Assembly (NCBI GenBank): GCA_022565595.1
Contig: JAIUML010000022.1
Coordinates: forward strand, 1-64,000
Direction of reading: 5' to 3'
Source: Saccharospirillum sp.
Lineage (GTDB): Bacteria; Pseudomonadota; Gammaproteobacteria; Pseudomonadales; Natronospirillaceae
DNA: 64,000 bases
Below the pieces are notes generated by a model. The model worked only from the letters and a program-made list of their open reading frames with translations. It did no database searches and was not told where the DNA came from. The translations under genes were made by a program, and so were the position numbers. Positions within the stretch are counted from its first letter, which is position 1. Each line of letters begins with the position of its first letter. Shown here in pieces: positions 25,324-38,098 of the stretch.

Positions 25324-25923
25324 TCAGCTCGAACCCTCAGCTAATAACTGCTCGATCTGCTGGCTCTCCCGCTCACAATCCGCTTGCTGGCAGCGGCTTT
25401 GCCAGATCGTGAGCGTGAAGACTTGAGCGCCTCTGAAGGCGGCGGGTATCTGGTATAACTTGGCCTTGGCGTAGCTGTCTGTTTGGGTGGTGCCTACCTG
25501 AAACTGGTGGTACGAAACAAAGTTATGAGGGCTGAACTTCCGTCGTAACTGGGTGCGAACATAGGGCTGGCCCGCTATGGTCCGGGTTTCCTGGCGGGTT
25601 TGGGTATAGTTGTCCAGGTCAAAGAGTCTGGGGATGTAGGGCACCAGGCCTTCGTTGCTCTCCGCCAGAGTGTTGATGTAGCGGCTCTGGTACAGGCCCT
25701 GCGGTAGGGCCTGGTGGTAAACCTGCATGGCGGTGCGGTTCAGCCGCATTGGCAACATCTGGGGGAGGGCTATTTGTTCTTCCGCCTGGCCAGGCGTGTA
25801 AGCCAACGCCATGGTTGCTGGTGGGCTAATGGCATTGAGGATCTGATTCATTAATAGCGGGGTCAGTAGCACCAGTAGCGCTATGGGCATCCAGAGTTTT
25901 TGGTGGAATTTTGCCTGCTTCAT
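25324..25923 (-). CDS. Exosortase-associated EpsI-like protein (DUF3485-like)
   Basis: The start at 25923 (MKQAKFHQKLWM) overlaps the exosortase stop by four bases and leads directly into a single membrane segment. The rest is a roughly 170-residue extracytoplasmic domain without known catalytic motifs. Proteins of this type follow, or are fused to, exosortases in many EPS loci and are needed for polysaccharide production in some bacteria. Their exact role is unknown. The call rests on position, topology and general resemblance. Confidence 0.7.
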   Translation of the reverse strand: MKQAKFHQKLWMPIALLVLLTPLLMNQILNAISPPATMALAYTPGQAEEQIALPQMLPMRLNRTAMQVYHQALPQGLYQSRYINTLAESNEGLVPYIPRLFDLDNYTQTRQETRTIAGQPYVRTQLRRKFSPHNFVSYHQFQVGTTQTDSYAKAKLYQIPAAFRGAQVFTLTIWQSRCQQADCERESQQIEQLLAEGSS

Positions 25924-26792
25924 GATGCTGCCTGCTTTTTGCCGTGGGGCGCAAAGAACATGGCCGGCAGCATAATCGCGCCGAACAGTACCCAACCAAA
26001 CAGTTCGTGCTCATGAACCAGTGAGCTCTGCATCTCTGAATAGTAGCCTACCAAGATGAGTATAAAGATACGGATCCAGTTCATGATCAACGCCAATGCA
26101 ACGGCAACGGTTAGCGTAAGCAGCATGGCAGGTAATTTGTAGTTCAGGTTCATGCTTAGCATCCAGCCCAGCGCAATGGCGACCACGAAATACCTTAACC
26201 CGGAACAGCCATCGGCAATCAACATGATGCCGAAGGGGAGTGTGATGCTGTTGCCATCAATAAGGGCTGGTATGGAGAGCTGGCTGACCGCAGAACCGAC
26301 GATCTCACTGGCCAACCACAAGAGAATGCCATTAAGTGAACCCCAGGCCTGGAGTGCGAACACCAGCAAGCCGCTGGTTTGCAGTAACTTCAGCCAGGAA
26401 GCCTCGGGGAAGAACACCATTAACAAACCCAGCAATAGGCCCACCAAAGCCAATTGAGTAATGGCGTCCATGGCGACGCGCTGACTTAACGCTGCCAATA
26501 CGGCAAATGCCAGCACCAGAGTAATACCAGAGTAGATTTTAGCCAGGCTGGGTTGGTTACGATTGTTGGTGAGTGCAAGCGCAAAAATGGCATATAGAGT
26601 CGCGGCTGCGATCAACAGGCCATGGCCCAGAGCCTGATCCCACCTGGTCCATTCCTGCAGAAGGTTGGCCCAGGTTGGCCAGAATGGCAGTACCATCGCC
26701 AGCACCAACACCAGTGCTTTCAGCAGCGACTGCGGTGCTACCTTGTGGTTCATGCCTGTAAGGGCTCCCTGTCCGGGCTGAAGGATCGACAT
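25920..26792 (-). CDS. xrt: Exosortase (PEP-CTERM processing membrane protease/transpeptidase)
   Basis: A 290-residue polytopic protein with the exosortase triad: Cys196 in ADGCSGLRY, Arg241 in NWIRIFILI and His262 in EHELFGW. GHGLL near residue 57 matches the usual N-terminal block. Exosortases are believed to cut PEP-CTERM tails at the inner membrane, as sortases do in Gram-positive bacteria. Two substrates are encoded at 29367 and 30750. It is in one operon with the UDP-sugar genes upstream and the EpsI-like gene downstream. The ATG at 26792 has GGAG eight bases upstream. I cannot assign the exosortase subtype with confidence. Confidence 0.9.
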   Translation of the reverse strand: MSILQPGQGALTGMNHKVAPQSLLKALVLVLAMVLPFWPTWANLLQEWTRWDQALGHGLLIAAATLYAIFALALTNNRNQPSLAKIYSGITLVLAFAVLAALSQRVAMDAITQLALVGLLLGLLMVFFPEASWLKLLQTSGLLVFALQAWGSLNGILLWLASEIVGSAVSQLSIPALIDGNSITLPFGIMLIADGCSGLRYFVVAIALGWMLSMNLNYKLPAMLLTLTVAVALALIMNWIRIFILILVGYYSEMQSSLVHEHELFGWVLFGAIMLPAMFFAPHGKKQAAS

Positions 26793-26831: not shown

Positions 26832-27857
26832 TTAACCAACATTGCTCACGTACCAGGGCATGGCCTTGTTGATGCCTAGCTGCACGCTGTATTGAGGGTG
26901 ATACCCCAGCAAGGTGTGGGCCTTGTTGATGGCCGCCTGTGAGTGGCGAACATCGCCTGCCCGAAAATCCCGGTAGTTGGGTGCCTGGGAGTAGCTCACG
27001 CCTTCTGTTGCCAGGGCGTTGCGTATCAACTCGAACAGTTGATTCAGGCTGGTTCTGTCGCCCACGGCAACGTTATAGACCTGGTTTTTGGCTTCATCCT
27101 TGGCGGTTGCCGCCAGCAGGTTGGCCTGAACGGCGTTTTCTATGAAGCAGAAATCCCGACTGGTTTCGCCATCGCCATTGATGTACACCGTCTCGCCCTG
27201 GATCATGGCGGCGGCCCATTTGGGAATCACCGCGGCGTAGGCGCCGTTTGGGTCTTGCCGTTGGCCGAATACGTTGAAATAGCGCAGGCCAATGGTGTTG
27301 AAGCCATAACTGCGCGCAAACACCTGGGCGTAGAGTTCGTTGACGTATTTGGTGACGGCATAGGGTGAGAGCGGGTTGCCTATGGTGTCTTCCTGTTTTG
27401 GCAAGTCCGGGTGGTCGCCATAGGTTGAGCTGCTGGCGGCGTAGGTGAAGCTGCGGACCTTGGCGTCTCGCGCGGCGACCAGCATGTTCAAAAAACCGGT
27501 AATGTTGCTCTCGTTGGTGGCGATGGGGTTTTCCAGCGAGCGGGGCACAGAGCCCAGGGCCGCCTGGTGCAATACGTAATCGACGCCCTCGCAAGCCGTT
27601 TTGCAGGCGGCAAGGTCGCGAATATCGGCTTCCATAAAGCGGAAGCGTTGCCATTGCTCTTCGCTGACGAGGGTATGTACTTCATCCAGGTTGTGCTGGT
27701 GACCGGTGGCAAAGTTATCGAGCCCGACCACTTGTTGGTTGAGCTTGAGCAGGGTTTCCAGCAAATTGGAGCCGATAAAGCCCGCAACACCGGTGATCAG
27801 CCAGGTTTTGGGGCTGTTTTGTAGCTCGTCGGTTAGGGCGAGGTAAGGCTGGCTCAT
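26832..27857 (-). CDS. UDP-N-acetylglucosamine/-uronate 4-epimerase (WbpP/TviC-like)
   Basis: Extended short-chain dehydrogenase. [18 protein letters not shown] (residues about 22-39) is the NAD loop, [18 protein letters not shown] matches the WbpP/TviC/Gne group, and SSSTYG with YAVTKYVNE provides the Ser/Tyr/Lys catalytic set. It interconverts the gluco and galacto forms of UDP-HexNAc or its uronic acid. Paired with the dehydrogenase upstream it would give UDP-GalNAcA, as in Vi antigen synthesis. The 341-residue length is typical. The exosortase gene follows after 39 bases. Confidence 0.88.
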
Positions 27858-29310: not shown

Positions 29311-29346
29311 CAGAAACAAAAAAGCCAGCGCACTGCGCTGGCTTTG
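29311..29346 (-). terminator. Intrinsic terminator after the leftward PEP-CTERM gene
   Basis: The inverted repeat AAAGCCAGCGCA / TGCGCTGGCTTT (29321-29345) is followed on the minus strand by TTTTTTGTTTC. It begins about 20 bases past the PEP-CTERM stop codon. The stem core GCCAGC is also used by the terminator of the rightward PEP-CTERM gene at 31654. Confidence 0.88.
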
Positions 29347-29366: not shown

Positions 29367-30194
29367 TTAAGCTTTTTGCTTGCGGCGTGCTGCAGCCAAG
29401 CCGGCGATGCCGAGGCCGAGCAGTGCAAGTGTGCCTGGCTCTGGAACGCGGCCGACGGTTACTCTATCAATACCAAATCCATCATTGTTGCCCACACCAT
29501 TGTCAAATACCAAACTCGCGCTGGTGATCATGAAATCTGATGTGATGGAGACATAAGCGAGATTGGCGTTAGCCAAATTATAGAGCACTTGATACTCTTC
29601 TTCCTCGCCATCGGCAGCAAAGGTCAACATCAACTTTGCGCCCTGATCATTGGCGTCAGACAGGTAAAAACCAAGAGCGTTGAAGCTAGACCCTGTCGAA
29701 ATATCCCATCTAATTTCGTCAGCATCATTGCTATCTAGCCAGTTACCACCATCCCAGTTCAAGAAACGACCATACTCACCGGTCAGCGCACCATCAGAAG
29801 CCATACCCTCGATCATCAACAAATCTTCATTGATATTATTGTTGCTACCGGGGTTTGGGGCTGGCGTGACCATAGAGAACGTACCGACCCGGGTATCAAA
29901 CGAGCTAGCGGCCATGAGCCAGCGCGTCTTATCTGTGCTGACTCCGCCAACCTCAAGAGACTCGCCTATATAGTCACCGGAAGCGCCGGCTGTCAAAGCA
30001 GGCAGATCATTGAAGTCTTCGGTTACGTATGAGTAGAGTGAGCCAAGAAATGCTGCTTCGGCATCCTGCGCAACATTGTCGGTATGGCTACCATAAGCAA
30101 CGCTGATATTGATCGGACCAGCTTGTGCCATACCTGCAGCGATTGCGAACGCTGAGCCCGCAACCAAAGCCTTTAAAACATTGTTTGTTCGCAT
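29367..30194 (-). CDS. PEP-CTERM sorting domain protein, riboswitch-controlled
   Basis: A signal peptide ([25 protein letters not shown]) precedes a roughly 220-residue mature domain without recognised catalytic motifs and an exosortase tail: [16 protein letters not shown], a hydrophobic helix, then AARRKQKA. The tail is the recognition signal for the exosortase encoded at 25920. The mature part is rich in Gly, Asn and Asp and may be a surface or matrix protein. Transcription starts at a sigma-54 promoter at 30332-30350, and the leader carries a c-di-GMP-I riboswitch, so expression should need PrsR-type activation and respond to c-di-GMP. A GGAG ribosome site precedes the ATG. Confidence 0.9.
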
Positions 30195-30209
30195 TATGTA
30201 TTCTCCATG

Positions 30210-30222
30210 AGCTAAGTTAGCT
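30210..30222 (-). promoter_or_regulatory. Short hairpin between riboswitch and ribosome site
   Basis: AGCTAA-C-TTAGCT forms a tight palindrome between the riboswitch aptamer and the GGAG ribosome site of the PEP-CTERM gene. No T-run follows, so it is not a terminator. It could be part of a translation-control platform for the aptamer. This is inferred from position. Confidence 0.4.
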
Positions 30223-30225
30223 TTC

Positions 30226-30308
30226 CGTGCAACCCGGCTGCCTCCTGGAGGTCCGTGGCTTTCCGTCCCACCCTCGCGAGTGGTTTGGCAACAATGACTA
30301 CGAAGGTG
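30226..30308 (-). ncRNA. Cyclic di-GMP-I (GEMM) riboswitch
   Basis: On the minus strand the leader contains GCCAAACC, a stem CCACUC-GCGA-GGGUGG capped by a GNRA tetraloop, then GGGACGGAAAGCC, a second stem (CGG-a-CCUCC-a-GGAGG-cag-CCG) and the closing GCAGCCGGGUUGC. These are the conserved blocks of the c-di-GMP-I aptamer in the right order. The G expected to contact the ligand (position 20 of the Vc2 RNA) is present by my alignment, which favours c-di-GMP over cGAMP. The aptamer lies between a sigma-54 promoter and the ATG of the PEP-CTERM gene at 30194. ON or OFF behaviour cannot be read from sequence. Confidence 0.85.
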
Positions 30309-30331
30309 TAACCGTAATCCTGCATGATTTT

Positions 30332-30350
30332 ATGCCATTTTCATGCCAAT
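30332..30350 (-). promoter_or_regulatory. Sigma-54 (-24/-12) promoter of the leftward PEP-CTERM gene
   Basis: The minus strand reads TTGGCATGAAAATGGCAT. The GG and GC dinucleotides have the exact spacing of -24/-12 promoters, and the TTGGCAT half is near consensus. The expected transcript would start around 30322 and include the whole riboswitch. A NtrC-type activator gene (prsR) lies 4 kb away. Confidence 0.8.
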
Positions 30351-30661
30351 TATAAAAACCATATAAATCAATAACTTATAGAGATCACTTTGATAACCCG
30401 TAAAAAAACCCGACGCCTGGAGCAGGAATAATCGAGAACCAGTTCACACTGTTCAAATACCCTTCAAACGGCTCTGACATGGGTTGCTCCAGACTAAAAA
30501 TCCTTCGATTTGTTGTCATTCAAAGCTGTATTTACTGGTTATTGTTGAGTCCGGTCCGGTATCTGAGTTTTTGTCGGGATTTTTAACAGTTTTGGAAGGG
30601 GTGGGGATTTTGAAATGCACGGCCTGTTTGTAGAGGCCAGTATACCGAGGCAGAGAAGGCA
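30351..30661. promoter_or_regulatory. Shared upstream control region of two divergent PEP-CTERM genes
   Basis: These 311 bases lie between two outward-facing sigma-54 promoters and contain no gene that I can support. Sigma-54 activators bind 80-200 bases upstream, so PrsR sites serving both promoters would be expected here. I could not single out a repeated operator with confidence. GGAGCA near 30420 and TGCTCC near 30485 form a distant inverted repeat. Confidence 0.5.
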
Positions 30662-30680
30662 TTGGTATAACCCTTGCATT
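30662..30680 (+). promoter_or_regulatory. Sigma-54 (-24/-12) promoter of the rightward PEP-CTERM gene
   Basis: TTGGTATAACCCTTGCATT has GG and GC at exact -24/-12 spacing and the full TTGCA -12 element. The predicted start is near 30690, leaving a leader of about 60 bases, too short for the riboswitch found on the other side. It presumably needs the same PrsR-type activator. Confidence 0.78.
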
Positions 30681-30749: not shown

Positions 30750-31601
30750 ATGAATAAACAGCTGTTAGGATTGTTAGGATCCGGGATGATCGCTCTGGCG
30801 GCCAATGCTAGCCCGGTTGTGATCTATGATGAGTATGTTGGCGGAACGGGGGCTTGGGGTAGCACTAACGGTGGGTCGGATCCAAATCATCCAGAATTAT
30901 CTGAGGATGCGATCGGGGTAGACGCTGTCTTCGACACTCATAGCATGACCATTACCCAATCGGGATCCATGTTTAATTTCGACATTCATACCAATTTTGT
31001 CGGCAAGCAAGGCACCAGTTCTACTGTGAACGGCCAAACCGTAAATTATGGCAAGTACATTGGCTACGGTGATCTTTTCCTCGGCAGTGTTTGGGAACCG
31101 GACGGTGATGCCTCTGACGGCTATGCCAGCGACGAAGCCTTTTCTACTCTTTGGACCTACGCACTGGTTCTAGATAACAGAGAAGGTACTGGCGGTGATT
31201 TATTGCTTTACAAGATGCTGGAAAGCAGTGACTCAACGGTTTTACTGAGTAACGATTATATGGAGCCTACATCCAATGGGTATCGCCAAAATCAGGAAGT
31301 TGCTCTGGACTTAAGTGCTGAGGATACCGGCAAGATCTTTAACACTCAGAGGGTGGGCAGTTGGACCGAAGATTTGACCAGTAGTCTGTTGAAGATGGAT
31401 ATCGACCTTTACGGTACGGGCCTTCTCGACAGTAACACCCTGGCATTTCATTGGACCATGTATTGCGCTAACGACGTGATTCAGGGGCAGGCAGATATTA
31501 CTCCCTATAGAGTACCCGAGCCTGGTGTTTTCTCGCTGCTGTCTTTGGGTCTGGTTGGGTTGTGGTTTGCCCGTCGGCGTCAGCAGAAGTTGGTTGCCTG
31601 A
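30750..31601 (+). CDS. PEP-CTERM sorting domain protein
   Basis: A signal peptide (MNKQLLGLLGSGMIALAANA) leads into a roughly 235-residue mature domain and then the exosortase tail VPEPGVFSLLSLGLVGLW followed by the basic ARRRQQK. The mature region is acidic and rich in Gly, Ser and Asp, with repeated YxxG-type text, and I recognise no enzyme motif. It is transcribed from a sigma-54 promoter, head to head with the other PEP-CTERM gene, and ends in its own intrinsic terminator. It is probably a surface or matrix protein processed by the exosortase at 25920. The two PEP-CTERM proteins are not obviously similar outside their tails. Confidence 0.9.
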   Translation: MNKQLLGLLGSGMIALAANASPVVIYDEYVGGTGAWGSTNGGSDPNHPELSEDAIGVDAVFDTHSMTITQSGSMFNFDIHTNFVGKQGTSSTVNGQTVNYGKYIGYGDLFLGSVWEPDGDASDGYASDEAFSTLWTYALVLDNREGTGGDLLLYKMLESSDSTVLLSNDYMEPTSNGYRQNQEVALDLSAEDTGKIFNTQRVGSWTEDLTSSLLKMDIDLYGTGLLDSNTLAFHWTMYCANDVIQGQADITPYRVPEPGVFSLLSLGLVGLWFARRRQQKLVA

Positions 31602-31925: not shown

Positions 31926-34544
31926 TTAGCGGGCGGCCTGGGCTTCTGTCAGGTGTTGCTGGATGTCTGGGTTGTTGGGGTCTAGCGCCAGGGCTTGTTC
32001 CAGGATTTCTATTGCTTCCTGGTGGTAGCCGGCTTTGTGCAGCACCCAGCCGTAGGTATCGAGTACGTTGGGGTTTTCCGGGGCGAGGTTGGCGGCGCGA
32101 TTGGCGAGGGCGACGGCTTCTTCGTTGGGGGCGTCGCGCAATACCCAGGCAAGGTTGTTCAGGGCCGCTACGTTGTTGGGCTGAAAGCGCAATACTTCGC
32201 GGTAGGCTTGTTCTGCTGAGGCTTCATTGGCCTGGCCCAGGTACAGGTCCCCGAGCATTTGCCAGGCCTGGGGGCTGTCTGGCTGTACTTCTGTCCATTG
32301 GCGGGCGTGGGTGATGATGTCGTCGGGGGCTACCTGGCGTGCCAGGCGAATCAACTCTGATGCCAGGCCGGGTTGAGGCTGGTCGGCCCACTCGGCTCTG
32401 AGAAAGTTGTACGCATTGCTGGCACCTTCTTCCTGCTCAATGAGTTGTGAGCGGGTGACGACGACCGGTGCTACTGCGCCAAAATCCGTACTCACCTGTT
32501 CGAGCAGGTTCTTCGCTTCGGGCAGGTTGCCCGCGGCGGCTGTCGTTCTTACCAACATCAGATGATAGGCAACGTTCTCGGGCTGCAAACTGATGGCCTC
32601 GGCCAGTTTGCTTCGTGCCAGGCTGGTATTGTCTTGCTGCATGGCCTGTTGCGCTTCGGCGACCAGCACCTGGGCATTCACGGCTCGGATGTAGTCGTTT
32701 GAGTCGAGTGTATGGCGGTTCAGGGTGGCTCTGGCGTCATCCAGGTTGCCGCGCTGCAGCTGCAGGCTGGCCAGGAGTGCGTGGGCATTTATGGCAATTT
32801 GGGGGTAGTTGTCGCCCATGTTCTCCAGCCAGTTGAACAGCTCTTCTGTGCTGTTGTTGGCCGCATAAAGCCTCGCCGCCTGCTGTAACGGCGTTAACAC
32901 CGTTGGTTCCTGCTCGGCGGCTTGCAGGTATTGCTGGATGGCATCGTTACTGCGGCCAGCGGTCTGGTATAGGCTGGCCAGGGCCAGGCGAGGTGCATTC
33001 CAGTTGGCATTGCTGTTTTGCACCAGACGTTCAAGGCGGCTAATGGCCCGGTCGGTCTCCCCAAACTGATGATCAGCCATGGCGACCAGTAAATTGGCGA
33101 AGGGCTCATCGGCGTGATTGGCCAACAAGCCATCACGCAGTTCTCTGGCTTCGGTGTTCAAGCTGTTGTTCAGCAGAACAGACAAGTAAAAGTCGGTAAC
33201 GGGCCAGTCGGTTGGGTTCTGATTGTAGGCAGAGCGCAGTTGCGCCAGCGCCTGTTCGGTTTCGTTGTTCCGCAAATGGTGTTGCGCCAGGGCGAGCCGT
33301 AATCTGGAACGGCTATTGTCGATCTCCAGAGCTTTGGCGAGGCTGGCCAGGCCAGCGGAGGCTGTGGCCGGTTCGGCTATCGCCAGAACGCCGTGCATGG
33401 CCAGCAGGTCGACGTCTGTCGGCCGCGCCAGCAGGGCGCGCTCCAGGGTGGTCATGGCCTGTTCTCGCTGGCCTCGGTCCACCTGGGCCATGGCCGAGAG
33501 CTGAATGAAGGGCGTAGGGCTGGTTTCTGCATCGAGGCTGCTCGACAGCATTTCATCACCCTGCTCGATATCGCCCATCTGCAAGGATACGGCGCCAAGC
33601 AGCATGCCCACCAGGTTGTTATCCGGGTTTTGCCGCATCAGGGTTTCGAGAGTGCTGCGCGCGGTGGCGAGGTCACCCTCGGCAATGGCTGCCAGCGCTG
33701 TCTGGGTGCCCTGTTGTAAATCCTGATTGGTGTTTTCTGCCAGGATCTGGTTGTAAATTTGTGCCTGAGTAATCTGGCCCAGTTCGGTGGAGGTGCGCGA
33801 CAGCAATGTCAGCACCTGTCGGCGAATCGGCAGAAACGTATCGGAGGTGGGTATCTGTTCCAGCGCGCCGGTCAGCGTCTCTGCTGCGGTATCGAGTTCA
33901 TTGAACTGGTATTGCACGAGGCCTTTTAAGTAGAGCAATTCGGCATCTGGCTGATGTTCTGCCATCCAGGTGTTGATGAATTGCTCGGCATCGGTGGCCT
34001 GTTCGCTGCGAATCAGTGCATTGGCCAGGCCTCTGGCGGCCTCTTTGTTGGCCGGGTCTGTATCGAGCACGTTTCGATAGCGGTCTATCGCCAGGCTGTA
34101 GTTGCCGGCAAGCCGAGTGCTGTCTGCTGCTATGCGGTCGCGGCGCACTCTGTCGGCTGTGTCCGTTGAGTTGAAGGCTTGCAAGGCTTCCTGGGCAGAC
34201 ACAAACTTGCCCTGGAGGTTGTAGGCTTCCGCTAATGGCAAGGCGATGGCTTCAGGGGCTTCTTCTTCCCAGGGCATCAGTGTTTCAACGGCAAAGCTGC
34301 TTGCGCCAACCATCAAATAGACTTCCGCCAGTACGATGGCGTGATTGATATTACCTGGATCTTTCTGTGTTGCGTTGCGAATTTCGATCAGGGCCGATCG
34401 GTATTGACCCTGGTCTGTGTAGACTTGCGCACGCTGTAAATGTTCGGCAGCCTCTGATTCAGCGTTACTGCTGTTGCAGCCCGCCAGCACCAGGATGCCC
34501 AAGGTGGCAACCAGGCTGGTGAGCAATTGGGTCCGGGCTTTCAT
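31926..34544 (-). CDS. prsT: PEP-CTERM system TPR-repeat lipoprotein PrsT
   Basis: The ATG at 34544 is preferred: GAGGGAA precedes it and the product then opens MKARTQLLTSLVATLG with the lipobox LVLAGC, so it is an outer-membrane-type lipoprotein. The roughly 850 mature residues are continuous tetratricopeptide repeats. PrsT proteins of this size and make-up accompany exosortases and PrsK/PrsR. The role is probably a periplasmic scaffold for polysaccharide or PEP-CTERM export. It lies just downstream of prsR on the same strand; a longer frame starting at 34577 would overlap the prsR stop by four bases. Confidence 0.88.
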   Translation of the reverse strand: MKARTQLLTSLVATLGILVLAGCNSSNAESEAAEHLQRAQVYTDQGQYRSALIEIRNATQKDPGNINHAIVLAEVYLMVGASSFAVETLMPWEEEAPEAIALPLAEAYNLQGKFVSAQEALQAFNSTDTADRVRRDRIAADSTRLAGNYSLAIDRYRNVLDTDPANKEAARGLANALIRSEQATDAEQFINTWMAEHQPDAELLYLKGLVQYQFNELDTAAETLTGALEQIPTSDTFLPIRRQVLTLLSRTSTELGQITQAQIYNQILAENTNQDLQQGTQTALAAIAEGDLATARSTLETLMRQNPDNNLVGMLLGAVSLQMGDIEQGDEMLSSSLDAETSPTPFIQLSAMAQVDRGQREQAMTTLERALLARPTDVDLLAMHGVLAIAEPATASAGLASLAKALEIDNSRSRLRLALAQHHLRNNETEQALAQLRSAYNQNPTDWPVTDFYLSVLLNNSLNTEARELRDGLLANHADEPFANLLVAMADHQFGETDRAISRLERLVQNSNANWNAPRLALASLYQTAGRSNDAIQQYLQAAEQEPTVLTPLQQAARLYAANNSTEELFNWLENMGDNYPQIAINAHALLASLQLQRGNLDDARATLNRHTLDSNDYIRAVNAQVLVAEAQQAMQQDNTSLARSKLAEAISLQPENVAYHLMLVRTTAAAGNLPEAKNLLEQVSTDFGAVAPVVVTRSQLIEQEEGASNAYNFLRAEWADQPQPGLASELIRLARQVAPDDIITHARQWTEVQPDSPQAWQMLGDLYLGQANEASAEQAYREVLRFQPNNVAALNNLAWVLRDAPNEEAVALANRAANLAPENPNVLDTYGWVLHKAGYHQEAIEILEQALALDPNNPDIQQHLTEAQAAR

Positions 34545-34573
34545 TGTCGTTCCCTCTGGGTTGGGTGGTGATG

Positions 34574-35935
34574 TCAATTGTCGACGGTCAACGCGTATTT
34601 TTTGAGCATATCGTAAAGCGTTGGCCGAGTTATACCAAGGTATTTGGCGGCGGCGGTGACATTATTGTTGGAAATGGACAACGCCTGCATGACGGCTTTT
34701 TTCTCGGCCTCCTGACGCACGTCTCTCAAGTTCAGGGTGCTCATTTCTTCGTTCTCTGCAGCCAGGCCAAGGTCGTGCGACTGTATGATCTTGCCTTCGG
34801 CCAGAATGATGGCTTTTTTAACCTTGTTTTCCATTTCGCGCACGTTACCAGGCCAGGTGTAATGCTCCAGGGCGGAAATCGCCTCGTTGGAGAAGCCGGT
34901 CACTCTGGCATAGCGATCCACAGCGTACTTTTTCAGGAAGTGGCGGGCCAACAGGGCTTTATCGCCATCTCGCTGGCGCAGCGGAGGAATGTCGACCACC
35001 ACTTCAGAGATGCGGTAGAAGAGGTCTTCGCGAAAGGTGCCCTCTTTGACCATAACTTCGAGGTTCTTGTTGGTGGCACAGACTACGCGCACGTCCACTT
35101 CAATGGTATTGCGGCCACCGACCCTTTCAATACAGCGCTCCTGCAGAAAACGCAGCAACTTGGCTTGCAGCGGCAGCGGCATGTCGCCTATTTCATCAAG
35201 GAAGAGGGTGCCTTTGGAGGCAACCTCAATGCGCCCAGGCCGGGTTTTATCGGCGCCGGTGAAGGCGCCTTTTTCATGGCCGAAGAGTTCGCTTTCCATC
35301 AGGTTTTCGGGGATGGCAGCACAGTTAATGGCGACGAAGGGCTTTTCTGCCCGGTCGCTGAGTTTGTGCAGTGTTTGCGCCAGTACTTCCTTGCCGGTGC
35401 CGCTTTCGCCAATAAAGGTACAGGTGACGTCTGCAGGGGCGATTTTTTCGACCAGGCGATGAATGCGCAGCATGTCCGGGTGGTTGGTGATCAGGTTACC
35501 GGTGCTGCCGGGTGCGGTCTTCTTCTGGCGGTTTTCCTGCTCGAGCTCGGCCACATGGAAGGCACGGCCAACGACGTGGTCAAGCTCCTGGGTGTCTATG
35601 GGCTTGGTGTAAAAATCGAAGGCGCCCAGTTCTATGGCTTTGAGGGCGTTTTCACGCTCCCCTTTCCCGGTCAGAATGATGACTTTGACAAAACCGGCCA
35701 GGGTGAGTATGTCTGAAAGGCAGCGAAAGCCTTCGCTCACGCCTTCCGGGTCTGGTGGGAGGCCGAGATCCTGAATGACAACGTTGGGTTCATACTGACG
35801 GACAGCCGCCAGGGCGCTTTCGCGGTCACCGGCGGTGACTATGGTGGTATCGAAATCGTCAAAGTGCCATTTAAGCTGACTTTGCAGGCCTTCGTCGTCT
35901 TCGACAATGAGAATTACGCGCTCATTCTTGTCCAT
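34574..35935 (-). CDS. prsR: Sigma-54-dependent response regulator PrsR
   Basis: Domains in order: receiver (about 7-120, phospho-acceptor Asp56 in VVIQDLGLPP, TKP near 111), AAA+ sigma-54 activator (Walker A GESGTGKE at 177-184, GAFTGA loop at 224-229 that contacts sigma-54), and a C-terminal Fis-type helix-turn-helix (NNVTAAAKYLGITRPTLYDML). PrsR proteins activate PEP-CTERM genes with RpoN, and two matching -24/-12 promoters lie at 30332 and 30662. It is in one operon with prsK (12 bases upstream) and prsT. Confidence 0.93.
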   Translation of the reverse strand: MDKNERVILIVEDDEGLQSQLKWHFDDFDTTIVTAGDRESALAAVRQYEPNVVIQDLGLPPDPEGVSEGFRCLSDILTLAGFVKVIILTGKGERENALKAIELGAFDFYTKPIDTQELDHVVGRAFHVAELEQENRQKKTAPGSTGNLITNHPDMLRIHRLVEKIAPADVTCTFIGESGTGKEVLAQTLHKLSDRAEKPFVAINCAAIPENLMESELFGHEKGAFTGADKTRPGRIEVASKGTLFLDEIGDMPLPLQAKLLRFLQERCIERVGGRNTIEVDVRVVCATNKNLEVMVKEGTFREDLFYRISEVVVDIPPLRQRDGDKALLARHFLKKYAVDRYARVTGFSNEAISALEHYTWPGNVREMENKVKKAIILAEGKIIQSHDLGLAAENEEMSTLNLRDVRQEAEKKAVMQALSISNNNVTAAAKYLGITRPTLYDMLKKYALTVDN

Positions 35936-35947
35936 GAAAGTACTCCA

Positions 35948-37987
35948 TCACTCCATGTTACCGCTGAATGTTACGGTAAAGGTAGTGCCATTGCCAACCT
36001 GGCTGGTTACTTCCAGCGAGGCACCCAGCTCTTCCAGGTAACTGCGAGTCAAATATACGCCGATGCCCATGCCCTGGCCCGTTTTTGTGGTCGCGAAAGG
36101 CTTGAACAGCTGCTGCTCGATAAAAGCCTGGCTCATGCCTGCGCCGGTGTCCATTATGTTAATAGAAAGCAAGCCGTTTGGGTGTGATTGAACGTCGACT
36201 TCGACACTGCCGTCATCCGGCGTTGCTTCCTGAGCGTTTTTAACCAGGTGTTTAAGGGCCAGTATAAAGCGTTCCTTGTCTGCCTGTATATTGCGGTCCT
36301 CGCCCTTTACGCTCAATTTTGGTCTGGGCAGTGTTGCGCTGCAGCTTTCGATGCTCGCCTCTACGGCCTCGAAAATCGACACTCCCGATACCACCTCACG
36401 GTCGTTGCGCCGGAACTTCTGCATCAGCCCTTTCATACGGTTAACGGCGTTGCTGACGGTCAGTATCATGTCGTCGATAAAGGCCGGGTTGCTTTTATGG
36501 CGTTCGGAGTTTTTAACCACCAATGCCAACTGAGCAATGAGGTTGTTCAGGTCGTGCATGATAAACGCAGAAAGCTTGTTGTAGGTATCGAGCTGCCTGG
36601 CCTCTGAGATTTGCTCTTCCTGGGTATGAATCAGGATATGGTTGGCCAGTTGCCGACCAATGGTTTTGAGGATGTCGAGGTCTTCCCAACTGGGTGGTGC
36701 GGTTGATCCGGCTTTTTCCACCGCGACAAAGCCAACCAGCTGGCTTTGGGTTACCAGGGGCACAACCAGTTGGATCGCTGGGTCCTGCCGAATCCACTCT
36801 GGCAGAGTCTCGTTGAATTCGGAGAGCGGGCCTTCTTTTACCTGGGGTGCAAACACCCAGTCTTCTTCAATCATGACGCCAATAAAGGCGGCCGTCACTG
36901 GCACTGTTGTGGGGTGAGTGGCACGACCGGCAGCATTGCTGAACACCTTGTGGTAGTGAGCCCCCTGCAATGCCATCACCACGCCACCCGTCGCCTTGAA
37001 GGTGTTGCTGATGACTTGATACACCCGCTCATAGACTTTATCGGCATCGGGTTCGCTGGACAGCGCTTGTATGACATTCAGCCACTCGTGCCGGTAGTCG
37101 TACTTGTGCCGAAAAAAATGTTTGCTGACCCAAACCTGAAGCGCGCCGCGGACATGGTTGGAAAAGAACAGCGCGGAGAGCCCAATCAGGCAGGAAAACA
37201 GCAAGATGGTAAACAGATAGATACCCCAGTGGCCACCCAGGGTTCGGACATAGTATCCACCGACCGCCAACAACAGAATGCTGACCGAGGAGATCAACAA
37301 GGATGTTGAGTAAAAGGCCACGGGCCTTGATATGCCAAGCCTGCTTGGCTCGTTAGCGGAATCCTTGAACAGTAAGCCGGCACCAACAATGAGGAAAGAG
37401 ACCCCGATCAGCAGCGCTGCTCGCGCCTGCCAAAGCAGTACATCCACTCTGCGATTGATCAACCCTTGGGCGTATAAGTACAAATTGAAGAGGAACAGCA
37501 GTGCCAGGCTAATACCCAATAGTTTGATGAATCGCCCGGTCTGGGCATTGCGTACCAATTGCTCAAGGCAGACCAGCGCAAGGAAGGAAAGCAACAGAAA
37601 ACAGAAAAACAACAAAGAGGTGCTGCTGGTCAACGCCAGAATGCTGTCGGCCAGGGCCAGTAGATAAACCCCAAAGGCAAGCGCCAGAGTGATGATCAGA
37701 CGGTGCGGCCAGCGAGCCGGCCTAAGCAGGTATAGGCTGTAACAGAGCGCGCTGATCCAGGCGATGAAGTGCGTGGCCTCCAGCGCCAGCAGCCACGCCG
37801 TGCTGATGCGAGTGTCCAGCAGGCTATAGGTCAGCAAGCCCAGCCAGAGCGTTTGCACTGCCGCAGCGGAGGCTATGGGCCACTTCCAGTGCCCGTAGGT
37901 ACTGGCATGCATCAGGAAAAGCGTTAACAGTAGGGAAAGGGCTGTCGCACTAAAATTGGCGTAGACAGTGACGGAGGTGTAGTCCAA
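35948..37987 (-). CDS. prsK: PEP-CTERM system sensor histidine kinase PrsK
   Basis: About nine N-terminal hydrophobic segments (first 290 residues) form the membrane sensor. They are followed by a GAF-like region, the phospho-acceptor block FIMHDLNNLIAQLALV (His near residue 477 of this start) and an HATPase domain with NAQEA, DTGAGMS and GQGMGIGVYLTRSY. It should phosphorylate PrsR. The start is uncertain: a TTG at 37987 has AAGGAT seven bases upstream and gives the usual short N-terminus, and a GTG at 38026 adds 13 residues but lacks a good ribosome site. A perfect inverted repeat covers this region. Confidence 0.9.
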   Translation of the reverse strand: MDYTSVTVYANFSATALSLLLTLFLMHASTYGHWKWPIASAAAVQTLWLGLLTYSLLDTRISTAWLLALEATHFIAWISALCYSLYLLRPARWPHRLIITLALAFGVYLLALADSILALTSSTSLLFFCFLLLSFLALVCLEQLVRNAQTGRFIKLLGISLALLFLFNLYLYAQGLINRRVDVLLWQARAALLIGVSFLIVGAGLLFKDSANEPSRLGISRPVAFYSTSLLISSVSILLLAVGGYYVRTLGGHWGIYLFTILLFSCLIGLSALFFSNHVRGALQVWVSKHFFRHKYDYRHEWLNVIQALSSEPDADKVYERVYQVISNTFKATGGVVMALQGAHYHKVFSNAAGRATHPTTVPVTAAFIGVMIEEDWVFAPQVKEGPLSEFNETLPEWIRQDPAIQLVVPLVTQSQLVGFVAVEKAGSTAPPSWEDLDILKTIGRQLANHILIHTQEEQISEARQLDTYNKLSAFIMHDLNNLIAQLALVVKNSERHKSNPAFIDDMILTVSNAVNRMKGLMQKFRRNDREVVSGVSIFEAVEASIESCSATLPRPKLSVKGEDRNIQADKERFILALKHLVKNAQEATPDDGSVEVDVQSHPNGLLSINIMDTGAGMSQAFIEQQLFKPFATTKTGQGMGIGVYLTRSYLEELGASLEVTSQVGNGTTFTVTFSGNME

Positions 37988-38017
37988 GTGGCCATCCTTG
38001 TTTCTCTGGATGGCCAC
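37988..38017 (-). promoter_or_regulatory. Perfect inverted repeat over the prsK translation start
   Basis: GTGGCCATCC and GGATGGCCAC (ten-base arms, ten-base loop) lie directly before the proposed TTG start. The 3' arm contains the GGAT part of the ribosome site, so the folded RNA would hide it. It could be a translational switch or a DNA operator. Confidence 0.5.
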
Positions 38018-38098
38018 ATTGTACACAGGTTCTGATAGGAGCGATAAGGCCTGGCATGATCACGCTGATTTGCCGAAGCCCTACCCTTTTACTGGAGA

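Follow-up and report, generated by a model that had tools for sequence, protein, structure and literature searches.

The window, by which we mean the whole 64-kb stretch of DNA analysed, holds on its minus strand a gene for a PEP-CTERM protein that is preceded by a c-di-GMP-I riboswitch aptamer and, above the aptamer, by a sigma-54 (-24/-12) promoter site. The coordinates of these and the other features are collected in Table 1. The start codon of the gene is at 30194, and the aptamer lies between this codon and the sigma-54 site. The protein has a signal-peptide-like start as judged by eye, and both PEP-CTERM models are matched above their cut-offs, in agreement with the earlier note that had placed such a gene downstream of the leader. 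The gene is probably read as a single-gene transcript because a terminator-like hairpin, which is a weak sign by itself, closes it.

The gene had also been described as lying beside its exosortase. An exosortase is present, but it is found about 2.6 kb further downstream, past two genes and the hairpin. Both intervening genes read as sugar-nucleotide enzymes, and one of them, the gene at 26832-27857 nearer the exosortase, was profile-scanned. Its membership of the exosortase family is clear, but it falls under the XrtA cut-off (TIGR03109, 133.6 against 208) and also under that of TIGR02602 (101.2 against 105.55). It is thus far under the XrtA model, although PrsK and PrsT carry names as XrtA-associated proteins. 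The 223-residue neighbour at 25324-25995 matched no family in the profile search. On the other side of the leader, a divergent PEP-CTERM gene is followed by genes for PrsT (which barely passes its cut-off), PrsR and PrsK. Since the profile search also gave one RpoN match in the genome, prsK, prsR, prsT and rpoN are all present.

Table 1. Positions of the genes and leader features in the window
Feature	Position	Strand	Remarks
Exosortase, EpsH family	25920..26792	-	PF09721 131.7 bits, cut-off 25.7
Terminator-like hairpin closing the PEP-CTERM gene	29321..29345	-	two sites of this kind against 1.7 by chance
PEP-CTERM protein gene, 275 aa	29367..30194	-	PF07589 33.2 bits (cut-off 20.7); TIGR02595 30.2 (cut-off 16)
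Shine-Dalgarno GGAG	30203..30206	-	
ACGGA, CsrA/RsmA-like GGA element (speculative)	30224..30228	-	just after the aptamer
c-di-GMP-I riboswitch aptamer, C21-G46 subtype	30225..30299	-	RF01051, 51.2 bits
5' stem-loop between predicted start and aptamer	30296..30319	-	leader fold
sigma-54 (-24/-12) promoter site TGGCATGAAAATGGCA	30333..30348	-	exact GG-N10-GC spacing
PrsR box (motif 1) CGTCGGGTTTTTTTACG	30399..30415	-	17 nt, 50 nt above the sigma-54 site
PrsR box of divergent gene TGTCGGGATTTTTAACA	30572..30588	+	10/12
sigma-54 site of divergent gene TGGTATAACCCTTGCA	30663..30678	+	74 nt below the box
Second, divergent PEP-CTERM gene without riboswitch	30750..31601	+	PF07589 21.7 bits, cut-off 20.7
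PrsT, TPR lipoprotein	31926..34577	-	TIGR02917 312.9 bits, cut-off 312.2
PrsR, sigma-54-dependent response regulator	34574..35935	-	TIGR02915 667 bits, cut-off 502.6
PrsK, membrane histidine kinase	35948..38026	-	TIGR02916 523.3 bits, cut-off 300

Aptamer, promoter site and proposed activator box

When the window was searched with cmscan against 4227 Rfam families, RF01051 (c-di-GMP-I) was the only match over the gathering threshold, with 51.2 bits against a cut-off of 35, an E-value of 4.5e-07 and model positions 1-87 covered. In the aptamer, P2 is capped by a GCGA (GNRA) loop, and the GGGACG block and GCAGCCGGGUU are present as well. The complete aptamer that had been read from the letters is therefore borne out by the Infernal check with the GEMM model that the earlier note had proposed.

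The claimed -24/-12 promoter is likewise present, with the spacing described. Taken alone, it is not above chance: a degenerate sigma-54 pattern with at most one mismatch has 8 matches in the window against 7.3 expected. The case for the promoter therefore rests on the pair that it forms with a box absent from the earlier note. This box matches 9 of the 12 fixed positions of the consensus TGTCGANNNNNTTTACA (its last base is G), for which the shuffle rate is 0.06 when the box is taken alone; the consensus was derived here from PEP-CTERM leaders, and the published logo was not the yardstick. The weights and the consensus behind the sigma-54 score are our own assumption. With a box of at least 9 of 12, a sigma-54 score of at least 16.5 and a gap of 35-94 nt, three pairs were found on scanning both strands of the window. 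Two of them precede the PEP-CTERM genes, at 29367-30194 and, divergently, at 30750, and the third is within prsR. No pair was found in random pieces of the window (400 draws, starts near the locus being skipped), and when the intergenic region was shuffled 200 times, a pair appeared once.

In the available text of PMC1569441 (Haft 2006), a 17-nt motif ending in TTTACA is described upstream of 99 of 167 proteobacterial PEP-CTERM genes, with a sigma-54 motif 32-92 nt after it (mean spacing 62.8, SD 10.6), and this 17-nt motif is proposed as the site of the activator PrsR. In the window we find motif 1 (9/12), motif 2 with its GG and GC, and a gap of 50 nt that falls within 32-92. Because of the box, assignment of the predicted promoter to the PrsR/RpoN class is supported.

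Recurrence of the leader in other genes and genomes

Four PEP-CTERM genes in the genome pass the Pfam cut-off, and both of its c-di-GMP-I aptamers precede PEP-CTERM genes. All three elements, box, promoter and aptamer, precede the window gene; box and promoter without an aptamer precede the divergent gene and a gene on contig C6 (near 136300-137160); and the gene on contig C53 (locus L191) has an aptamer without a good sigma-54 site or a box. The genome is therefore a natural two-by-two set, with one gene carrying both inputs, two carrying box and promoter alone, and one carrying the riboswitch alone. Judging from these leaders, the two predicted inputs are separable, because the C53 riboswitch lacks a box as well as a good sigma-54 site.

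In 115 related genomes, 25 aptamers were found at E <= 0.001 in 18 genomes, of which 8 precede PEP-CTERM genes and 3 precede VPxPA-type genes. A sigma-54 score of at least 16.5 was obtained for 7 of the 8 PEP-CTERM aptamers, the exception being the C53 copy. The PEP-linked aptamers read GCCAAACC...GACGGAAAG or near, while most others read GGCAAACC...GACGCAAAG; in the former, C-G replaces G-C as the 21-46 pair. Public genomes were scanned for this C-G form, and the scan, which possibly omits records near the window's own genome, gave at least 120 matches in at least 116 stretches. We rejected this aptamer subtype as a marker of PEP-CTERM genes, since most of the at least 120 matches precede other genes.

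Three of these matches had too little upstream DNA for scoring, L055 duplicates L128 and was removed, and L146, which is the Natronospirillum contig again, was counted as open-ended. Among the matches listed, a sigma-54 score of at least 16.5 within 110 nt above the aptamer was found for 11/11 PEP-CTERM genes and 1/12 VPxPA-type genes, and for 5/65 other, 4/20 open-ended and 0/9 loci without an ORF. The corresponding shuffle rate is 0.023-0.035, and Fisher's test of PEP-CTERM against VPxPA-type plus other genes gives 3.9e-10 among the matches listed. If GG and GC are also required, 10 of the 11 PEP-CTERM loci listed pass (Fisher 6.9e-09). Class assignment by regular expression affects two of these counts. 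L065 (Nitrosospira, tail VPEADTW..., class "other") is a PEP-CTERM variant by eye with an aptamer and no sigma-54 site (score 11), so that the recount becomes 11/12 for PEP-CTERM genes among the matches listed. L140, the only VPxPA locus listed that passes, is a VPGP variant with a sigma-54 site. Further non-PEP loci that pass include L070, L103, L120, L147 and L148.

The threshold of 16.5 was chosen after a first look at the data and was then fixed before new loci were drawn. At this fixed threshold, a sigma-54 site was found in 17/17 fresh PEP-CTERM loci and 1/8 others (Fisher 1.7e-05) in new draws, one of which took 30 of 48 matches, mostly by best score; 16 of the 17 come from genus g28 and are not independent. 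Genus g28 includes Marinobacter koreensis, whose leader sequence is identical. The loci concerned are L176-L221 (46), of which L181, L195, L197, L198 and L218 have no core by regular expression, and the 41 that were scored contain 8 repeats. From the 33 remaining, L178, L183, L184, L185 and L191 had been seen before and were excluded from the fresh counts. L218 was added to the set of PEP-CTERM leaders; L208, L215 and L216, classed as "other" but PEP-like by eye (VAEP or truncated tail), are within the resulting 39 leaders and outside the 17 and the 8.

The box was compared between these 39 PEP-CTERM leaders and 86 non-PEP controls, which leave out the "open" and "none" matches. Among the matches listed, it scores at least 9/12 in 33/39 leaders against 6/86 controls, and at least 10/12 in 32/39 against 0/86, with a search span of 200 nt in the controls and, in the leaders, of no more than 120 nt counted upward from the sigma-54 site. 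The figure of 33/39 is partly circular, the consensus being from the same leaders, and an independent reference is provided by the published 17-nt motif, which ends in TTTACA. The window box, at 9/12, is weaker than the threshold of 10 that most counted leaders reach. Among the matches listed, the box is absent in six leaders, namely L082, L084, L164 and L167 (Desulfobacterota-type records), L185 and L191; in L084 and L191 the GG of the -24 element is missing as well.

The full stack with box occurs in six gammaproteobacterial genera: g28, the window's genus, Natronospirillum (G016), g80, g38 and Glaciecola. Aptamer and sigma-54 site without the box are found in genus g8 (L185) and in L082, L164 and L167, and the score of L084 passes with the -24 GG missing. 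The homologues in G001 and G004, of the same genus as the window, have no aptamer and no box and promoter pair. The leader comparison in related genomes suggested in the earlier note thus finds the stack again in other genera, and this conservation supports the view that the predicted stack is more than a chance feature of one window.

The box-to-sigma-54 gap in the riboswitch PEP-CTERM leaders has a mean of 53.0 nt and an SD of 3.6. Among PEP-CTERM genes without a riboswitch, most of them from a protein search and with L018 left out, a pair was found in 19/23 at slightly lower thresholds, for which the background is 31/400 random pieces and 8/200 shuffles. Their gaps cluster at 52-53, 62-65, 74 and 82-86 nt, that is, about one DNA turn apart (R 0.83 at 10.5, with 0/5000 uniform simulations as phased; 18 genes, including gaps found at the looser thresholds, with L023 dropped as a copy of L022). 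The phased genes are the divergent gene (box and sigma-54 site at 30572-30678(+)), the C6 gene (G000:C6) and L016-L036. Spacing by about one turn supports reading the box as a binding site for an activator whose position is kept to one helical face. A mixture of such phased gaps would fit the mean of 62.8 with an SD of 10.6 given in the available text of PMC1569441.

Related arrangements were also seen before other genes. In L040, L044 and L046, which encode a family of proteins of about 450 residues, the c-di-GMP-I aptamer is preceded at 82-101 nt by a sigma-54-like site (scores 16.5, 18.5 and 19), and no PEP-CTERM tail is found where the protein end is present (L044 runs off its locus). The stack therefore also occurs outside PEP-CTERM genes. 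In the Acidobacteria loci L067 and L148, an aptamer with a good sigma-54-like site 39-41 nt above the core precedes large proteins. VPxPA-type sorting genes often have the same aptamer (L064, L068, L071, L138 of Methylomonas, and L045, L057 and L058 of G087), some with terminators (L071) and few with a convincing sigma-54 site. Two aptamer cores in a row, about 150-260 nt apart, occur in L086, L117 and L175.

Leader fold, switch direction and ligand

Transcription is predicted to start at 30320-30322, 12-14 nt after the C of the -12 element. Among the matches listed, the predicted start lies 0-40 nt above the aptamer core in 39/39 leaders and inside the core in 0/39, which is weak evidence since only about 11% of the scanned positions could give a start inside the core. 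Between the predicted start and the aptamer, the 5' segment folds better than shuffles (z < -1) in 30 of the 32 foldable leaders among the 39 listed, with a mean of -2.3, and the stem sequences differ. The fold suggests a protector of the 5' end or a spacer; a protein operator is less likely because the stems vary in sequence and yet keep their pairing.

After the aptamer, the sequence ANGGA occurs before the Shine-Dalgarno site in 25/38 leaders against 5.0 expected from shuffles, and the Shine-Dalgarno site itself is inside an ANGGA-type element in 14/38 (both among the matches listed); a single genus, in which the block is shared, contributes much of the count, so that we treat the element as a lead. 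We presume that the element resembles CsrA/RsmA sites. Control in three layers can be imagined on this basis, in which a phased PrsR/RpoN promoter and a c-di-GMP riboswitch with its 5' stem-loop would be joined by CsrA/RsmA acting on paired GGA elements, just after the aptamer and at the Shine-Dalgarno site. We regard it as quite unlikely. If it were true, the matrix protein would be made only when the states of the kinase, the second messenger and Rsm agree.

The direction of the switch was examined first through terminators. No terminator was found in the window leader, nor between aptamer and gene in 37/39 PEP-CTERM leaders among the matches listed. The terminators of the remaining two, L084 and L164, contain the aptamer 3' strand AGCCGGGTT in their 5' arm. 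In a survey of 148 loci of the C21-G46 subtype, 16 had no recognised 3' end, 86 had no terminator and 46 had one (L162, counted as separate, looks misassigned). Among these matches listed, 34 of the 46 terminators overlap the aptamer 3' strand and 12 do not, a count made without a shuffled control. As the same strand would serve both the aptamer and the terminator, bound ligand would prevent termination, and most of the related riboswitches that have a terminator resemble ON switches.

Folding was rejected as a guide to direction since native leaders are no different from a swap control. The accessibility of the Shine-Dalgarno site was obtained from partition functions by comparing the full leader with the leader whose aptamer is set apart, in 38 of the 39 leaders (L164 has no usable start, and the start choice of L049 is doubtful). 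For the window, it is 0.75 free and 0.69 bound. Among the matches listed, the mean change over the 38 leaders is +0.036 against +0.028 in the swap control, and a gain above 0.1 occurs in 10/38 native leaders (26%) against 27% of the swapped ones. In the Marinobacter leaders, GGUUG of the aptamer 3' strand faces CAACC beside the Shine-Dalgarno site by eye, which fits an ON switch there; no covariation of this pairing was seen in the Marinobacter leaders, and it is absent in the window.

The same stack could also be read with an OFF switch, where PrsK/PrsR activates the gene and c-di-GMP lowers its expression. The slightly less open Shine-Dalgarno site of the bound window leader and the loss of more than 0.1 in accessibility in 5/38 leaders agree with such a gate (A AND NOT B). 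Against it, the 34 of 46 terminators that take the aptamer 3' strand as their 5' arm imply that bound aptamer and terminator are mutually exclusive, that is, ON. Moreover, PEP-CTERM proteins are associated with biofilms, a state of high c-di-GMP. Expression data bear on both sides. According to the available text of PMC8233155, two PEP-CTERM genes are higher in biofilms of Marinobacter atlanticus; by analogy this fits an ON switch, and it speaks to PEP-CTERM genes and not to the riboswitch itself. In the available text of PMC12530212, 4 of the 7 c-di-GMP riboswitches of Methylophaga strain GP59 (Table 4 of that paper) lie beside PEP-CTERM/VPLPA-CTERM genes, and three of these four are higher in biofilm, while one, on the side of the OFF reading, is higher in planktonic cells. 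On this evidence we find an OFF switch doubtful.

The ON reading takes c-di-GMP as the ligand. By our own mapping of the model positions, G20 is taken to be 30289 and C92 to be 30229. In the cmscan alignment, the predicted ligand-site bases under this numbering are kept (model position 11 is G, and 30229 is C), and the G at the position taken for G20 favours c-di-GMP over cGAMP. The RNA family is identical to that of the cGAMP-type switches, which precede surface genes in Geobacter, and so 3',3'-cGAMP could be the ligand here as in the Geobacter GEMM-I riboswitches. The presumed position 20 is G in the window and in the eight PEP-CTERM aptamers found by the Rfam model, whereas A at this position marks the G20A/cGAMP form (PMC6274999, available text; work on the Geobacter switches is cited in PMC13194489, available text). 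The pattern-found loci are uninformative on this point, as the search pattern itself demands that G. A cGAMP ligand is thus very unlikely.

That the riboswitch is the sole real control, with a sigma-70 promoter reading the gene and the box and sigma-54 site being accidental, would agree with the chance level of the sigma-54 pattern alone, with a TTTATA-18-TAAAAT sequence overlapping the site and with the bare C53 riboswitch, but it is highly improbable given that box and promoter are kept at fixed spacing before PEP-CTERM aptamers and are rare before other genes with the same aptamer, and that sigma-70-like sites are no more frequent than in shuffles (2 against a mean of 2.4).

Probable two-input control and comparison with known systems

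We consider it probable that a PrsR/RpoN promoter and a c-di-GMP riboswitch of ON direction jointly govern the PEP-CTERM gene. The gene at 29367-30194 would be transcribed from an activator-requiring RpoN (sigma-54) promoter, and the activator would most likely be PrsR, which the membrane kinase PrsK would phosphorylate and which would occupy the box at 30399-30415. The transcript would begin near 30321 and form the short 5' stem-loop followed by the aptamer, which ends about 20 nt before the Shine-Dalgarno site, and binding of c-di-GMP would set the translation level of the message. If c-di-GMP turns expression on, both the kinase signal and c-di-GMP would be required, as is expected for a matrix protein made in biofilms.

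The earlier note had proposed an AND gate. Its foundation stands, with two predicted regulatory inputs stacked on one exosortase substrate, a promoter of the PrsR/RpoN class and conservation of the stack, and the two-input reading is well supported by these sequence comparisons. The AND form itself needs an ON switch; since the window's own leader, without a terminator and with an accessibility like that of the swap control, gives no direction, that part is only partly earned, and we regard the AND combination as likely.

In the available text of PMC1569441, PrsR/RpoN control of PEP-CTERM genes is a prediction and the signal sensed by PrsK is called obscure, while RpoN dependence is shown for one gene in that of PMC9850573 (Aquincola pepA is RpoN1-dependent, with a mapped start). 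Within the available text of the open-licence literature searched, nothing joins a riboswitch and RpoN on a PEP-CTERM gene, and there is little in it on how c-di-GMP reaches the exosortase system. As far as we have seen, the stack, its conservation and its spacing are new, and the individual parts are known. If the AND gate holds, a membrane signal and the biofilm messenger would both be tied to surface-protein sorting through a single RNA. The stack recurs in several marine bacteria and so looks like a real, testable two-input control, and it is common in Marinobacter, which is cultured and used for electrode biofilms.

When compared with RF01051 (GEMM-I), the window has the complete aptamer above the cut-off, with the GNRA loop in P2 and with G20 and C92 kept in our numbering, but its 21-46 pair is C-G where the consensus has G-C, and it lies under a sigma-54 site without a terminator. 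Methylophaga GP59 has in common with it a c-di-GMP riboswitch beside PEP-CTERM or VPLPA-CTERM genes; RpoN, PrsR and a promoter are not mentioned in the available text of PMC12530212, whereas the window has a box and a sigma-54 site. The VPxPA-type loci of our sample also differ, as they mostly lack the sigma-54 site that one of 12 has among the matches listed. With the PrsK/PrsR-RpoN system, as described in the available text of PMC1569441 and PMC9850573, the window shares the 17-nt box ending in TTTAC(A/G), a sigma-54 site within the reported 32-92 nt, a long leader and PrsK, PrsR and PrsT encoded nearby. No riboswitch is mentioned in that text, whereas the window has one, and while PMC1569441 gives a mean gap of 62.8 nt, the box-promoter gaps found here keep to about one face of the DNA.
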